A DNA stretch of 64,000 nucleotides. It comes from Portibacter marinus. GTDB taxonomy: Bacteria > Bacteroidota > Bacteroidia > Chitinophagales > Saprospiraceae. Position numbers and translations under genes: made by a program. Shown piece by piece: positions 4,554 to 52,253 of this stretch. Under the pieces are notes generated by a model. It worked only from the letters and a program-made list of their open reading frames with translations. It did no database searches and was not told where the DNA came from. Location of the stretch: contig NZ_JAJNKB010000001.1 in assembly GCF_021533195.1 (NCBI RefSeq), forward strand, positions 806,001 to 870,000. Reading direction: 5' to 3'. The first letter of the stretch is position 1. The number at the start of each line of letters is the position of its first letter.

Positions 4554-7094
4554 TTACAATTTAGTAAATTTCATGTTTGAAGTTTGAATACCATTGGAAA
4601 TACTAATAACGTATATCCCTTTATTAAAATGCTGTATATTAATATTATTTGGTTCTGAGGATATTCTTAATGTATTTTTAGAAACCAATTGACCATTTAT
4701 AGTTCTAATCATCACATCATATACTTCGCTTTTTTGCGATTTTATATCATCCAACGAAATGCTTAAATACGTAGACACCGGATTTGGAGCTATAACGATA
4801 TGACCTTTCCCTCGAACCAATACAGATTTCGTTTCAGTCACAGAATATTCCCCGTTGAAGTCCACTTGCTTTATTCTAAAATAGTGATTCCCAGGTTTTA
4901 TGTCAAACAACACGCTTCTATAAGTATTTTCTTGCGCTCTATTCACTCCTGGAGTCACGAAGTACTCATTAACCCACTCCCTATTATCAAGTCTTTGAAT
5001 ATAAAAGCCTTCATTATTAACCTCCCAGGCTGTGGCCCATTCCACAACCACTTGCTCTGGCTTATGAGAATAAGCTTCAAAGGATAACCATTCAACCGGC
5101 ACTGTCGCACCGCTTGTACCAGGATTGGGTGTACCAGAGACTTTGGTACCATCAGATTCAATCTGAATACTCTCACCATCTCCTGAATCTGACCCTTCGC
5201 ATCCATCTGACTTGCCAAAAGCTGCACAAAAGTCAAACATCATACTTGATCTAGTAGCAGTATTGTCATAGGAAACCTCATCCACCCTCTGCATCGATCG
5301 GTCTCCGGCAGTAAAGGCATCGGGCTTTTGACCAATATAAAGTGCAACCGCTCCTTGTGAATTGAGAAACTGTTCATCTGCTCCTCCACACTCATCTGGT
5401 GCACCAGCATAGTCAAAGGGTTGGTCGAGATTATTGACTGCAGAGTCACCAAAAACAAAGTACTCTCCTGGTGCAATTTCACCAAACATTTTTCCCATAA
5501 AGCATGACATGCCTTGGTCGTCAAAAGCTACTGTCAAATATTCATCTATTTGCACATTGTAGTTACCTGCATTGTATATTTCAATAAACTCTCCAGTTCC
5601 ATCGCTGGTATTTGGATCAACTTCAGTTATTCTTAAAGAATCTACTCTTTGAGGTGCTTGATATTCCCAGGCTCCCCTATCTGGTATATTTCCATCTGCT
5701 CCACGAACAAATCCTCTACCATCATAATCAAATGTAGCTATGGTTGTACCATTATCTATAGCCAAACTATTAGATCCAAATTCTAATATAGGTACTGCAT
5801 AGGTATCCTGGTTTTGAATTCCTCCTGCTTGCGGATCAAGACTATTGGACATTCCACCCAAAGTATCTGTCTCCTGCTCCATAAATATAGTTCCTAAACC
5901 AGCGGTAATACCGATCATGTTATAACCATTACTGATTAAGGCCGATTCACTTGCAGTTGTATCTTGAAATAAATCTTGCGCTGCTCCTGCAGGTTCGTTT
6001 TTGGCTATTACATTATTCTGAAAATCCAATGTTCCTTCATTCGTGACTTCGGCTGTTCCGGGTATCCTTTGTGCCACAGCCACACCTCCTCCTTGAGCAG
6101 GACTACCTGGTATTCCAGCTTGACCGTCACCTTTAGGTTGACCAGCTCCACCGGCTCCACCTCCATTGTTTCCTACTAGTGTAGAACTTAAAAGTGTTAG
6201 ATTTCCGGCACAATAAATTGCTCCTCCATTACCGCCATTACCACCGTTTCCACCATCAGCATTTCCGCCATCCGGTCCGCCGGCATCTCCTGCACCACCA
6301 CCTCCACCGGTAGCACAACCTTGAAAAGTCGCTCTTGTAATTTGTGCAGTGGTACCAGAACCTATATAGACAGCACCTCCATCACCACCATCTCCACCAT
6401 CGCCACCTGTAGTAGTGCCAGCTTCAGAACTTGGTGTAACACCTTGTCCACCCCCACCGGTGGTACATTGAACAAATGTCACTTGATCCATTTCAAAAGT
6501 ACAATTAGCACCCACATAAATAGCTCCACCATCATCACCATCTGTCCCATTTACACCTTCTGGACCACTTCCATCCTGATTACCTTGCGATCCACGTCTA
6601 CTGGATAATTGATTGAAGTATATTCGTTCAATTTTTACGGATTTACCATCACCTATATGAAAACCTCTTTCCTGGCTGCTAAAATTGACTCTGATCTGCG
6701 GACCAGGTGTACCTGTTCCTTGTATATGTAGGCTTGTGAAACTTCCATTTAAATCAAGATCTCCATATTCATTATTGTCCTCATATAAACTTACGGATTC
6801 ACTGGATGGACTTCTTGCGATTTCATATGTTCCACTTACACCCCCTGGTAATGTACCAGGCAATACAATAAGAACATCTCCAGTACTAGCATTAGCTTCA
6901 TCGATCGCTGCCCTTAATGTGCAGTTTCCATCCATATCCATACACTTGCCATCTCCGGGAACCATATCCCGCGCACCCACTAAATCTGTATTATTGTCCA
7001 CAATAAGAATTAGTGGATCAGATTGTGTGATAAGCTGAGCACTTAAAAAGTGAATAAAAAGAAAGGATAATAAAAATGGTAAAAGTAATTTCAT
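4554..7094 (-). CDS. Secreted CSLREA / glycine-rich / lamin-tail surface protein with T9SS sorting domain
   Basis: An 846-residue exported protein. Signal peptide at 1-19; a CSLREA-type motif (CTLRAAIDEAN, 58-68); then a parallel-beta-helix-like region in which a unit beginning GGA(I/V)Y recurs at about 189, 239 and 290 (roughly 50-residue period), separated by Gly/Asp/Asn-rich runs such as GGNGGNGGNGG. A segment ending RGAWEY (about 472-478) fits the choice-of-anchor Q pattern. A lamin-tail-like domain starts near 487 (LRITEVDPN...GEFIEIYNAG). The last about 80 residues (from IAPNPVSTYLSISL to the end) form a T9SS type A sorting domain, so the protein should be exported through the outer membrane and anchored or released. 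Likely adhesin or matrix protein. It is divergent from the silk-like gene across a 571-bp spacer. Confidence 0.85.
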   Translation of the reverse strand: MKLLLPFLLSFLFIHFLSAQLITQSDPLILIVDNNTDLVGARDMVPGDGKCMDMDGNCTLRAAIDEANASTGDVLIVLPGTLPGGVSGTYEIARSPSSESVSLYEDNNEYGDLDLNGSFTSLHIQGTGTPGPQIRVNFSSQERGFHIGDGKSVKIERIYFNQLSSRRGSQGNQDGSGPEGVNGTDGDDGGAIYVGANCTFEMDQVTFVQCTTGGGGQGVTPSSEAGTTTGGDGGDGGDGGAVYIGSGTTAQITRATFQGCATGGGGGAGDAGGPDGGNADGGNGGNGGNGGAIYCAGNLTLLSSTLVGNNGGGAGGAGQPKGDGQAGIPGSPAQGGGVAVAQRIPGTAEVTNEGTLDFQNNVIAKNEPAGAAQDLFQDTTASESALISNGYNMIGITAGLGTIFMEQETDTLGGMSNSLDPQAGGIQNQDTYAVPILEFGSNSLAIDNGTTIATFDYDGRGFVRGADGNIPDRGAWEYQAPQRVDSLRITEVDPNTSDGTGEFIEIYNAGNYNVQIDEYLTVAFDDQGMSCFMGKMFGEIAPGEYFVFGDSAVNNLDQPFDYAGAPDECGGADEQFLNSQGAVALYIGQKPDAFTAGDRSMQRVDEVSYDNTATRSSMMFDFCAAFGKSDGCEGSDSGDGESIQIESDGTKVSGTPNPGTSGATVPVEWLSFEAYSHKPEQVVVEWATAWEVNNEGFYIQRLDNREWVNEYFVTPGVNRAQENTYRSVLFDIKPGNHYFRIKQVDFNGEYSVTETKSVLVRGKGHIVIAPNPVSTYLSISLDDIKSQKSEVYDVMIRTINGQLVSKNTLRISSEPNNINIQHFNKGIYVISISNGIQTSNMKFTKL

Positions 7095-45937: not shown

Positions 45938-47074
45938 TTAGTTCTTTATTAAAAAAGCAATTTTTCCGCACTGCTCTCCATTTCTGGTCCTCGAAAATTT
46001 GAATTCTCTTGATTTACGCAATGCTAAAGAAATCAAACCTGCAGATCCCACTGTCGATTTCTTTTTATTTAATGTAGCACTGGAAACATTTCCACTTTCA
46101 TCCACACAAACATTGACCACAACCTGCCCAGCCTTATCTGATAAAATCAATATGTCAGGTACCTCTCGAACTTCGCGACTGCCGATTCCATCATATAATT
46201 TAATATCCAGGTCTTCATCGATTTCAATGATCTCAACAACAATATCCAGCGGCTCGCCAAAAACCGGATCTTCATCCGGAAATTGACTATCTAAATCATC
46301 ATCACTGTTTTCATAAATATAATCATCTTCCGAAGCAGAAGTCATTTCATCTCCAGCACTATCGTTCATATCATCTTGTTCATCCATATCCTCTGTGGAC
46401 AGTACCTCATCTCCAGATAAGATGTTGTCATCTTCTTCCTCCCGTGATCCTGCTGATATTACTTCCTCATCCTCCCCGAGTTCTTCTCCATCATCTTCAG
46501 CTACAACTTCAGGTTTTTTAACAGGTTCGTCTTCTATAGGGATTGCGACTCGACTGCAATAAGTAGAGGTATTCTGAGAAGCTCTATCCGACCCTAGTCT
46601 TTTGGCTTTGTGCCAGTCTGTACAAGCTGCCACATCATCCTCTATTTCAAAGTACGCATTTCCTCTAAAAAGTAAAGCTTCAGAATTAGCAGGATTTTTC
46701 ATGATACTATAATCCAAATAGCTAATGGCAATCAATGGGTTCCCCAATTGAAGTTCAGCTTGACCTAAAATCAGGCAAACTTCTTCATTTAAACCGTGAA
46801 ATTCAATATATGCCAGTCCATCCTTCTTGGCACCTTTATAAGCTCCAAGTGCATACTTTGCACGAGCTCTGTAAATCAATACCTCTTCAAAGGCAGGATC
46901 CCCTTTAACGATATCATTATAAATCTGAATGGCTTCATCAAATCTTCCGCTATCAAAAAGATAATTACCCTTCACATATTTGAAACCTGTTTCCTCCTCT
47001 ACACTTTGAGCGTGTACTGACGTGATTAATGAAAGGATGAGAGAAAGTGCGAATAATATTGTTTGGGTCTTCAT
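45938..47074 (-). CDS. TPR protein with acidic linker and TonB-C-like C-terminal domain
   Basis: 378 residues with a signal peptide (1-22, SVHAQ). TPR units follow (about 25-165: GNYLFDSGRFDEAIQIYNDI, PLIAISYLDYSIMKNP). A long acidic, low-complexity linker runs from about 180 to 275 (many Asp, Glu and Ser). The last about 90 residues (VVVNVCVDESGNVSSATLNKKKSTVGS, and the final KIAFLIKN) resemble the TonB C-terminal domain fold. No membrane anchor of a canonical TonB is seen. A periplasmic envelope role is likely; details unknown. It sits about 110 nt downstream of element copy 1. Confidence 0.8.
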   Translation of the reverse strand: MKTQTILFALSLILSLITSVHAQSVEEETGFKYVKGNYLFDSGRFDEAIQIYNDIVKGDPAFEEVLIYRARAKYALGAYKGAKKDGLAYIEFHGLNEEVCLILGQAELQLGNPLIAISYLDYSIMKNPANSEALLFRGNAYFEIEDDVAACTDWHKAKRLGSDRASQNTSTYCSRVAIPIEDEPVKKPEVVAEDDGEELGEDEEVISAGSREEEDDNILSGDEVLSTEDMDEQDDMNDSAGDEMTSASEDDYIYENSDDDLDSQFPDEDPVFGEPLDIVVEIIEIDEDLDIKLYDGIGSREVREVPDILILSDKAGQVVVNVCVDESGNVSSATLNKKKSTVGSAGLISLALRKSREFKFSRTRNGEQCGKIAFLIKN

Positions 47075-47184: not shown

Positions 47185-47292
47185 AAAAAAAAAGCGCCCA
47201 AGATCCTCACCTTGACGCGCTTATTACCCTAAAACTAATTTTTATAAAACACCCTTTGGATATAAGAACCTATTTAAATAAGCCCCCCCTAT
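47185..47292 (-). ncRNA. Candidate small or leader RNA, copy 1
   Basis: Read on the minus strand: ATA, G6 (47289-47284), a 17-nt variable window (47283-47267), a conserved body starting CTTATATCC, then a hairpin and T9 (47193-47185). The hairpin pairs AAGCGC with GCGCTT and CAAG with CTTG around an 8-nt loop. From the G-tract to the last T is exactly 105 nt. Its 82-nt conserved part is identical to copy 3. The T9 ends 110 nt before the TPR start, so it could be a free sRNA or a terminated leader. Confidence 0.6.
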
Positions 47293-47472
47293 CCAATGTG
47301 CAATTTTTTTTTGAAAAACTTTATTCAGCAATATACCTTATTGATAATCAGCAATATAAACTTTCTGTGAGGTAGAATAAATAATTACAGATCGTCTTAT
47401 CATTGGTGAACTCTGCAGTAACTTGTCATGGAGATAGATTTTCTGGGGCTGGTCAATGGGACATTTTAGTGC

Positions 47473-47580
47473 AAAAAAAAAGCGCTCAAGATCCTCATCT
47501 TGACGCGCTTATTACCCTAAAACTAATTTTTATAAAACACCCTTTGAATACAAGAAACCTTTAAATCAAATCCCCCCTAT
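47473..47580 (-). ncRNA. Candidate small or leader RNA, copy 2
   Basis: Same organisation and length as copy 1, with G6 at 47577-47572, a different 17-nt window (47571-47555) and T9 at 47481-47473. It differs from copies 1 and 3 at four positions in the conserved part. One change in the hairpin turns a U-G closing pair into U-A, which keeps the stem. It follows the serine hydrolase stop by about 70 nt and no ORF lies directly downstream, which favours an independent RNA. Confidence 0.6.
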
Positions 47581-47650
47581 TCACTTGCAAAAAAAATCAC
47601 ATTTTTTCTGCAGTACTCCTTTATGTCAATAATACTGTTTTGCAAACTCC

Positions 47651-48943
47651 CTATTTTAAAGAACTATAGACTATTGAATAAGCTTTTTCCCAAAAATCTC
47701 CTCTGGGAAATGGGACTACTTGCGTCATCCCGACGAAAGTAAGCTGCTCTTCTGGATCAATAAAGAACTTAGTATTGAAGTAGCCTCCCCATTCAAAAGT
47801 CCCAGGTGATTTCATGGAAGCGGCCTGGCCTGCCTCTGTTTTGAGCTGAAAACCTAAGCCATAAGTTATTCCAGGAGTCTTAGAAAATCCTTTTCCTTCC
47901 ATATTTAGCATGATCATTTGGTCTGAAGTCATGACCTCAATTGCTTTTCTGGATAAAATCCTTTTTCCATTCCACTCACCATTATTTAAAAGGGCTAAAG
48001 TCAGTTTCATATAATCTGCTGCTGTACCAGACATTCCTCCCCCTCCTGCAAAGTGGTTTCTGCCAATGGCCATTGGATAATTGAGAGATTCATCTTCTGA
48101 CAGAATCAGTTGACCTTGATCATCAAATGTATAAACAGGTACAATTCTTTCATGCTTTTCTTCTGCAATAATGTAACCAGTATCATACATTTCAAGTGGC
48201 TCAAGGATGTTCTTCTGTACATAAGCTTCCAGAGACATTGCTGTCACCTTTTCTATGACGCCACCCAATACTTCCATGTTTAGACCATAACTATAGCGAT
48301 CACCTGGTTCAAAAATCAATGGCACCTTGGCCAATGATTGAATCATCTCAGTAGTACTTAACTCGTCATGAGACAGACCAAAGCCATTGGCACCAAATTC
48401 ATCATACATGGCTTGAATGGCTCCACCCTTGAACACGCCGTAAGTGATTCCTGAAGTATGCGTTAATAAATGACGAATAGTAATTGGTTTAGATGATGGT
48501 TTTAAGGTATAAGTTGAATCCTCATTGTTAATGCTCGTTGCAATCTGCGCATTTTTGAATTCAGGAAAATAGTAATGCAGAGGATCATCTAATAATATCC
48601 GACCATTTTCATAGAGTTGCAAGATGGCAACAGTAGTGATCGCTTTGGTCATAGATGCTAATCTGAAAATATCATTCTCGGCATACGCTTCGTTAGTGGC
48701 TCTCTTTCCAAATGATTTAGAATAAACGATTTCGCCATTTTTAGAAATCATAAATACACCACCAGGGAGATGGCCATCATCTATGAAGTTCATAATGTGT
48801 TGATCTAATAATGCCAATCGTTCTTCAATGATGCCATTGGCATGAACCTTCTGATCGGTAAATAATAGGGCTTCATTTTGAGAGAAAGCAACATTGACCA
48901 TCAAAACAAGAATCAAAGTGCCCAGTAAACGTCTAAAATTCAT
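47651..48943 (-). CDS. Class-C-beta-lactamase-like serine hydrolase
   Basis: 430 residues with a signal peptide (1-21, VNVAFS). The SxxK nucleophile motif is ASMTKA in FRLASMTKAITTVAIL, the second-motif region reads RYSYGLNMEVLGG (Tyr kept), and the third region has GGYFNTKFFIDPEEQLTFVG. The family covers class C beta-lactamases, DD-peptidases and esterases; the sequence fits the EstB/penicillin-binding-protein-like group better than true cephalosporinases. An esterase or D-amino-acid peptidase in the periplasm is likely. It is flanked by element copies 3 (upstream) and 2 (downstream). Confidence 0.88.
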   Translation of the reverse strand: MNFRRLLGTLILVLMVNVAFSQNEALLFTDQKVHANGIIEERLALLDQHIMNFIDDGHLPGGVFMISKNGEIVYSKSFGKRATNEAYAENDIFRLASMTKAITTVAILQLYENGRILLDDPLHYYFPEFKNAQIATSINNEDSTYTLKPSSKPITIRHLLTHTSGITYGVFKGGAIQAMYDEFGANGFGLSHDELSTTEMIQSLAKVPLIFEPGDRYSYGLNMEVLGGVIEKVTAMSLEAYVQKNILEPLEMYDTGYIIAEEKHERIVPVYTFDDQGQLILSEDESLNYPMAIGRNHFAGGGGMSGTAADYMKLTLALLNNGEWNGKRILSRKAIEVMTSDQMIMLNMEGKGFSKTPGITYGLGFQLKTEAGQAASMKSPGTFEWGGYFNTKFFIDPEEQLTFVGMTQVVPFPRGDFWEKAYSIVYSSLK

Positions 48944-49319
48944 AGGAGGAAAAATTATGGTAAAGAAGCTAAGATATCACTTTTAGTGCTAGAGGATATA
49001 AGGAAAAAATAGATATGGTCTGGAGATGATGACATAGGTACAAAAAAAAAGCGCCCAAGATCCTCACCTTGACGCGCTTATTACCCTAAAACTAATTTTT
49101 ATAAAACACCCTTTGGATATAAGACTACACTTTCTTCTTTCCCCCCTATTCCAAGTAAGAAAAAATAGCACTAATTTCTACATTTTTATCTTGTATATAT
49201 GTAGTGGAATGACTTGCAATCTATTATACAGCTCTATAGAAATAAAAAAAATATAAATTTTTGACTTTCTCTCTTTCCGAACATCGTACACCTAAATAAA
49301 TTAGATTAATAAAACAATA
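48944..49319. other. 376-bp divergent region holding element copy 3
   Basis: Separates the serine hydrolase (minus) from the MscS gene (plus). Apart from copy 3 (49042-49149) it is AT-rich with no ORF and no exact TAnnTTTG box. Confidence 0.6.
49042..49149 (-). ncRNA. Candidate small or leader RNA, copy 3
   Basis: Same organisation: G6 at 49146-49141, a third 17-nt window (49140-49124), conserved body, hairpin and T9 at 49050-49042. Its conserved 82 nt (49042-49123) are identical to copy 1. The T9 ends 98 nt before the serine hydrolase ATG at 48943. Confidence 0.6.
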
Positions 49320-51074: not shown

Positions 51075-52253
51075 ATGAAAGAAGTATATATAGTTTCTGC
51101 TACGAGAACTCCTATGGGAAGTTTTGGAGGAATGTTAGCGGGTATTTCTGCGACAAGCTTAGGTTCCACAGCCATCAAAGCAGCTTTAGAAAGAGCAGGT
51201 GTGGCTGCTGAACAAGTAGATGAGGTCTTTATGGGAAATGTTTGCAGCGCTAATCTTGGGCAAGCTCCTGCTAAGCAAGCCAGTTTAGGATCAGGAATTC
51301 CCAATACTGTCCCGTGTACTACGGTCAATAAGGTTTGTTCGTCAGGAATGAAGTCCATTATGTTCGGTGCGCAAAGCATACAATTGGGACATGCCGATAT
51401 CATCGTGGCCGGGGGCATGGAAAGCATGAGTAATATTCCTTACTACTTACCTAAAGTGAGATGGGGTTTGAAGTACGGGCATTCTGAAATGATCGATGGA
51501 TTGCAGAAGGATGGTTTGTCAGATGCCTATGACCACCAGGCAATGGGCGTGAGTGCAGACAACACGGCTAAAAAATATGATATTTCAAGGGAAACGCAGG
51601 ATGAGTTTGCCATTGATTCTTATAAAAAAGCAGCTTCGGCGACTGAAAATGGAAATTTTAAAGAAGAAATAACTCCAGTACAGATACCTCATAGAAGAGG
51701 CGAACCAATCGTCATGAGCGAAGACGAGGAATATAAAAATGTGAAATTTGAGAAAATTCCTTCATTGAGACCTGTCTTTTCTAAAGATGGCACTGTCACA
51801 GCAGCTAATGCCAGTACGATTAATGATGGCGCTTCTGCCTTGGTTTTGGCAAGTGAAGAGGCCGTCAAGAAATTTGGTTTGAAGCCTATTGCTAAAATAC
51901 TTTCATACGCAGATGCTTCTCACGAGCCAACCTGGTTCACAACAGCACCAACATTAGCTGCTCCTAAAGCACTTAAAAGAGCTGGATTGTCTAAAAATGA
52001 CATGGATTTGTATGAGGTCAATGAAGCCTTTGCAGTAGTGACCCTGGCTTTTAACAAAGAATTGGATATCGATCCATCAAAGGTCAATGTGAATGGTGGT
52101 GCCGTAGCTTTGGGTCATCCACTTGGGTCCTCCGGGTCTAGAATTACTACGACTTTAATTCATGCCTTACATGCACAGAATGGGAAATACGGGTGTGCCA
52201 CTTTATGTAATGGAGGTGGCGGTGCCAGTGCGATTGTTGTAGAAAGGTTGTAA
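51075..52253 (+). CDS. Acetyl-CoA C-acetyltransferase / thiolase
   Basis: 392 residues of a biosynthetic-type thiolase. Acyl-acceptor Cys88 in NKVCSSGMKS; the second catalytic block NEAFAVV; His in GGAVALGHPLGSSGSRI; the final Cys in ATLCNGGGGASAIV. It condenses two acetyl-CoA or cleaves acetoacetyl-CoA. It has its own promoter box and no linked beta-oxidation genes; the MaoC and FabG-like genes at 20-21 kb could belong to the same pathway. Confidence 0.94.
   Translation: MKEVYIVSATRTPMGSFGGMLAGISATSLGSTAIKAALERAGVAAEQVDEVFMGNVCSANLGQAPAKQASLGSGIPNTVPCTTVNKVCSSGMKSIMFGAQSIQLGHADIIVAGGMESMSNIPYYLPKVRWGLKYGHSEMIDGLQKDGLSDAYDHQAMGVSADNTAKKYDISRETQDEFAIDSYKKAASATENGNFKEEITPVQIPHRRGEPIVMSEDEEYKNVKFEKIPSLRPVFSKDGTVTAANASTINDGASALVLASEEAVKKFGLKPIAKILSYADASHEPTWFTTAPTLAAPKALKRAGLSKNDMDLYEVNEAFAVVTLAFNKELDIDPSKVNVNGGAVALGHPLGSSGSRITTTLIHALHAQNGKYGCATLCNGGGGASAIVVERL

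Follow-up and report, generated by a model that had tools for sequence, protein, structure and literature searches.

The variable stretch inside each of three short intergenic elements of Portibacter marinus is most likely the gap between two contact sites of an ECF sigma factor, and not an RNA targeting sequence. We are confident, on the grounds of comparative sequence analysis, that each of the elements is an independent gene encoding a small RNA (sRNA) of about 73 nt, placed under an ECF-sigma promoter whose untranscribed spacer is the variable stretch. This assignment builds on features established in the sequences themselves, namely the motif, its spacing, its placement at sigma/FecR and other genes, the housekeeping-promoter copies that stand in the same register, and the existence of a multicopy family. 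The elements would define a new family of regulated sRNAs in the Saprospiraceae, with a constant 5' end and without diversified seeds.

Results

The DNA analyzed (the window) is a stretch of 64,000 nucleotides, and the 5.19-Mb genome from which it comes holds no copies beyond the three found here. Re-reading the sequence placed these on the minus strand at 47289-47185 (copy 1), 47577-47473 (copy 2) and 49146-49042 (copy 3), where the sequence-only reading had located them, and its fixed length of 105 nt from the G6 tract to the last T proved exact in every copy, or 107 nt if the TA of TAGGGG is included. With E values between copies of about 1e-32 to 1e-40, the repeats are far above chance. 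Each copy follows the exact register TAGGGG, 16 variable nt, a 6-nt box, 6 nt, AAAGGGTGTTTTATAAAAATTAGTTTTAGGGTAATAA, terminator hairpin and T9, so that the conserved boundary is TAGGGG with the 16 variable nt, the box and 6 nt, after which AAAGGGTG begins. The variable stretch had been given as 17 nt; its variability and constant length stand, but its register was slightly off, as it comprises the 16 nt after TAGGGG. Copies 1 and 3 agree in every one of their final 83 nt at the 3' end, one more than the 82 counted earlier, and the four body differences of copy 2 are present as described, one of them changing G-U to A-U with the pair in the terminator stem kept.

In copy 1 the -35 box TAGGGG, which is the G-tract of the earlier reading, occupies 47286-47291 (minus strand, as are all element features), as assigned from the coordinates and from the information peak at -35 to -30 in 62 copies. 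It is followed by the 16-nt promoter spacer GGGCTTATTTAAATAG at 47270-47285, the -10 box GTTCTT at 47264-47269, the predicted 73-nt sRNA from AAAGGGUGUU to T9 at 47185-47257, whose core is conserved family-wide, and within it the intrinsic terminator hairpin with T9 at 47185-47222, supported by the fold and by pairs kept in 13 copies from three genomes. The corresponding features of copy 2 are the -35 box TAGGGG (47574-47579), the 16-nt spacer GGATTTGATTTAAAGG (47558-47573), the -10 box TTTCTT (47552-47557), the predicted 73-nt sRNA (47473-47545) and the terminator hairpin with T9 (47473-47510), and those of copy 3 are TAGGGG (49143-49148), the 16-nt spacer GGAAAGAAGAAAGTGT (49127-49142), the -10 box AGTCTT (49121-49126), the predicted 73-nt sRNA (49042-49114) and the terminator hairpin with T9 (49042-49079).

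The locus is flanked in all three Portibacter genomes by the same two genes, one for a TPR protein downstream of the sRNAs (45938-47074, minus strand) and one named from its sequence as a thiolase (acetyl-CoA acyltransferase; 51075-52253, plus strand). The end of copy 1 lies about 110 nt from the start of the TPR gene, an order kept in the three genomes. Copies 2 and 3 are separated by a serine hydrolase (beta-lactamase/AcmB-like) gene at 47651-48943, which is absent from this locus in the two other Portibacter genomes.

A Blast search of 101 genomes found seven arrayed copies and one elsewhere in one congeneric genome (G002) and two copies in another (G001). Searching relatives with a covariance model of the core together with a pattern scan across 84,980 species genomes, recovered further copies in other Saprospiraceae, and all 43 copy-bearing stretches from this wide search belong to that family. 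Other genera carry up to about ten scattered copies per genome. There are three main core types, which have nothing in common beyond the 5' CAAAGGGTGTT and the way the terminator is built. Weak covariance-model matches in genera other than those that have the G-tract motif were discarded; the two boxes are missing from them, and they resemble AT-rich terminators matched by chance. On one MAG contig (L082) copies lie at 5558, 6000 and 6442, in an exact spacing of 442 bp and with near-identical flanks, which judged from this pattern is a recent local tandem duplication.

With a gap of 6-34 nt allowed between GGGG and TCT, a pattern scan detected copies in 18 of 398 Saprospiraceae genomes. A single spacing was found in all 18, apart from shifts in the register of the G-run and GGGG inside the variable stretch; the reversed control of the same scan gave zero matches in the 398 genomes. 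The G-run starts 33 nt before AAGGG in 56 of the 62 G-tract copies from Saprospiraceae, and across these 62 the information content peaks at -35 to -30 and at -13 to -8 relative to AAGGG, with a low plateau between. About -35 and -10 are the textbook positions of sigma contacts. The elements thus have the build of an ECF promoter, with two conserved boxes, a fixed spacer of 16-17 nt and a position at -35/-10 of the predicted start.

Within the main core types the spacers are only 37-44% identical, as against 82-95% for the cores, and spacer positions 10-14 are almost exclusively A/T. Both the divergence and the nearly A/T-only positions would suit promoter DNA better than free seeds, since an untranscribed spacer is fixed in length and free in sequence except for an A/T-rich stretch. 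The segment that runs from GGGG through the -10 box does fold slightly better than the same segment with its spacer shuffled (mean -3.53 vs -2.68 kcal/mol), for copies that are related and hence non-independent. When whole 105-nt elements are folded, the 5' fold differs from copy to copy, so no common structure takes in the variable stretch.

Two copies of the array in Portibacter lacus (L022, 5332 and 6206) carry TTTG...TACATTTG directly before AAAGGGTG and are devoid of the G-tract. Here a housekeeping promoter of the form TTTG ... TACATTTG replaces both G-tract and variable stretch in the same register, directly before AAAGGGTGTT, and a third array copy (L022, 5930) has a housekeeping promoter ahead of a diverged core. 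As the same core stands behind a housekeeping promoter, the RNA is defined by the core and not by the variable stretch, and as the promoter of these three copies is the canonical sigma-ABfr type in place of the ECF type, paralogues of one sRNA would be under two sigma factors. The sigma-ABfr promoter is restricted to these three P. lacus array copies and is not found in the three copies of the window. Upstream of two further copies on L022 (5195 and 5652) a palindrome-like TTACATATGATGAAAAAATAAATGTAA, with a similar stretch, precedes the -35 box and is possibly an activator site.

A two-box search of eight genomes returned 29 motif matches without the sRNA core, compared with 6 for the reversed control, so the motif also occurs before other genes at the same spacing. 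Several of these matches lie 6-54 nt ahead of genes or other terminator-bearing units. Five of the 29, from two other genera, separate the gene for an ECF sigma factor of about 180-195 aa from one for a FecR-like protein, whose start codon comes 6-8 nt past the end of the search pattern; Pfam domains are Sigma70_r2/r4_2 in the sigma and FecR_C in the anti-sigma factor. On this basis the same arrangement was predicted for Portibacter. With the sigma orthologue picked at about 200 bits vs 130 for other ECF sigmas, the predicted motif was found ahead of FecR in each of the three Portibacter genomes, every time with another spacer, in the genome of the window as GAGTAGGGGGACATTTGATAAGTAGTGTCTTAC. 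The motif is therefore present at the sigma/anti-sigma locus in eight loci from three genera, the arrangement expected for autoregulation. The sigma gene in the genome of the window (G000:C11:360328-360861; NCBIfam TIGR02985, FecI/Sig70_bacteroi1 type) shares an operon with the genes for a FecR anti-sigma factor and, following it, a TonB-type outer-membrane transducer, a TonB-receptor-like protein of 903 aa. Some kb further downstream lies a Crp/Fnr-like regulator gene, and in two Portibacter species the motif occurs near the start of this gene (L232 14980-15010, G000:C11 about 355,000; and L101).

Among the other motif matches, some precede genes for surface-protein-like products or for a YfiO/BamD-like lipoprotein, and several precede further terminator-bearing units. 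TAGGGG-N16-TGTCTW is also seen before an sRNA-like unit (TTAAAGTC...AAAGGTG(A/T)TAAAGTCAGT) in L113, L110, L168 and L178 (g33 genus), the units of L110 and L113 looking orthologous with differing spacers, and in L172, L173 and L183 the motif is followed by yet another kind of short unit that ends in a terminator (GATAATGAAAAATGGATT..., hairpin, T-run). Scanning 2.46 Mb of the genome of the window with a weight matrix recovered the known sites, and the total was no higher than in the reversed control; the matrix on its own therefore does not define the regulon in this genome, and only the strongest and best-placed sites are to be trusted. The -10 boxes of the sRNA copies in this genome depart from, and are weaker than, the TGTCTT of its own FecR promoter.

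The position of the boxes at -35/-10, the housekeeping copies that have no G-tract and the occurrence of the motif at other genes together indicate that the transcript likely starts 3' of the variable stretch, and as a consequence the 5' end of the RNA (AAAGGGUGUU) is constant. The predicted RNA folds into the terminator only, leaving a single-stranded 5' part of 35 nt whose first ten bases are constant family-wide. Base-pairing sRNAs usually join a single-stranded 5' part to a terminator in this way. Among 1,767 start regions, from about half of the genome, complements to the seed were not above the level of permuted k-mers or scrambled seeds, and a duplex-energy search for targets yielded nothing above controls. 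A count of seed complements in nine genomes was 28 vs 14, with about 6 of the 28 at the sRNA genes themselves, and does not make a convincing case. Seed complements are thus not enriched where translation starts, and action in trans is unsupported.

Discussion

The sequence-only reading placed the RNA start at the G-tract and took the variable stretch as a diversified seed on a common scaffold, with different targets for the different copies. Intergenic, multicopy sRNA genes with a terminator and a single-stranded 5' part are what we find as well, but the different seeds do not hold up. A stretch that is unlike in all three copies at fixed length, and the slight folding excess of the 5' region, would agree with a seed; the boxes around it however take up the -35 and -10 positions relative to the constant core, the same core occurs behind housekeeping promoters with neither G-tract nor variable stretch, the same motif with other spacers precedes FecR and further protein genes, and positions 10-14 that are nearly all A/T would be odd in free seeds. 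The evidence that the variable stretch is outside the transcript is indirect, as it comes from its place between promoter boxes and its absence from the housekeeping-promoter copies, and we consider a diversified seed very unlikely. Still less weight is given to the boxes as the binding site of an activator or another DNA signal, with the sRNA start likewise 3' of the variable stretch. Several copies are preceded by AT-rich stretches that could serve as activator sites, but the box positions, the 16-nt spacer and the YGTCTW -10 match ECF promoters, the motif is tied to ECF sigma/FecR in the eight loci, and nearly all G-tract copies are without a visible housekeeping-type -10.

The two alternatives named along with the seed reading are both disfavored. 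That the elements are terminated 5' leaders, or attenuators, of downstream genes might be suggested by copy 1 with its short, conserved distance to the TPR gene. A terminator, however, precedes the next gene, most array copies are followed by another copy and not by a gene, other genera have their copies scattered over the genome, and the terminator stem alone is conserved, with no conserved antiterminator fold, all of which makes a leader extremely improbable. A truncated mobile element or non-functional dispersed repeat would be multicopy, and the evenly spaced copies of the MAG contig could be read in this way. Its probability appears close to negligible, as boxes, core 5' end and terminator are conserved while flanks and spacers diverge, the locus is syntenic between the TPR and thiolase genes, and a search of IMG/VR with the exact element pattern returned no viral match.

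An sRNA gene behind an ECF promoter is thus the reading that we retain, and it can be compared with known systems. At the gathering threshold, Rfam has no match for the elements. Copy 2 (47540-47472, minus strand) matches FopS (RF04319) over its full length but below threshold, with 23.9 bits where the gathering score is 56, and chance-level matches elsewhere in the same genome reach 24.1 bits, so the elements were not filed under FopS. FopS/GibS (Rfam RF04319; PMC11697453) are multicopy sRNAs of Bacteroides, and FopS binds RbpB and represses susC-type mRNAs. The Saprospiraceae sRNAs resemble them in being multicopy Bacteroidota RNAs of about 65-75 nt with a conserved single-stranded 5' part and an intrinsic terminator, some P. 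lacus copies even sharing the sigma-ABfr promoter. They differ in that FopS is found on sigma-ABfr promoters whereas most Saprospiraceae copies have an ECF-type promoter, and in that core types B and C are unlike the FopS consensus beyond GUGUU. A start-site map of the flavobacterium Flavobacterium psychrophilum lists an ECF-type motif, SM6, with a CGT box at -10 (PMC9723704), consistent with the -10 seen in the Saprospiraceae motif; in the parts of that report consulted, no TAGGGG -35 is mentioned and the SM6 genes are mainly those of type IX secretion. Searches of an open-access library for ECF-driven sRNAs in Bacteroidota or for sRNAs in Saprospiraceae gave nothing that matches, and we know of no such multicopy family from the latter.

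In the mechanism that we propose, a FecI-like ECF sigma factor, in the genome of the window likely the product of G000:C11:360328-360861, would recognize a promoter with a -35 of TAGGGG, a 16-nt spacer and a -10 of YGTCTW (TGTCTW). A surface signal would free the sigma, which would then read the promoter of its own FecR together with those of the sRNAs. We infer that the RNA is transcribed from a start near the constant AAAGGGUGUU and ends at the terminator. The sigma operon has the components of FecI-FecR-FecA systems, as it combines an ECF sigma, a FecR-like anti-sigma factor (FecR_C) and an outer-membrane transducer of the TonB type, but here the motif separates the sigma gene from FecR, and small RNAs are part of the regulon that we propose.

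Enteric bacteria possess the sigma-E-dependent sRNAs RybB, MicA and MicL. Common to both cases would be a constant 5' end and the control of sRNA genes by an ECF sigma that in addition transcribes the operon of its anti-sigma factor. The Saprospiraceae sigma, in contrast, is of the FecI/Sig70_bacteroi1 type with a FecR anti-sigma factor and a TonB transducer, and many copies encode one RNA where the enteric sRNAs are single and different. By analogy with these, the RNA could act in trans and repress envelope mRNAs through its constant 5' end, a function that we regard as possible but somewhat short of probable; a protein-binding or sponge role may be the other candidate.

As a general caution, a hypervariable stretch that keeps its length next to a conserved scaffold may turn out to be the spacer of a promoter, a trap that a single comparison with relatives in which the promoter is another one can expose. 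TAGGGG-N16-YGTCTW is put forward by the analysis as a concrete promoter of a FecI-like ECF sigma factor in Bacteroidota, with a multicopy sRNA family in its likely regulon. Tentatively, and with the doubts outweighing by a little, the system might be a Bacteroidota counterpart of the sigma-E/RybB-MicA arm, in which a FecI-FecR sigma drives a multicopy sRNA of constant seed along with unrelated terminator-bearing sRNAs, some copies having moved to housekeeping promoters, and a surface signal would be turned mainly into post-transcriptional control.
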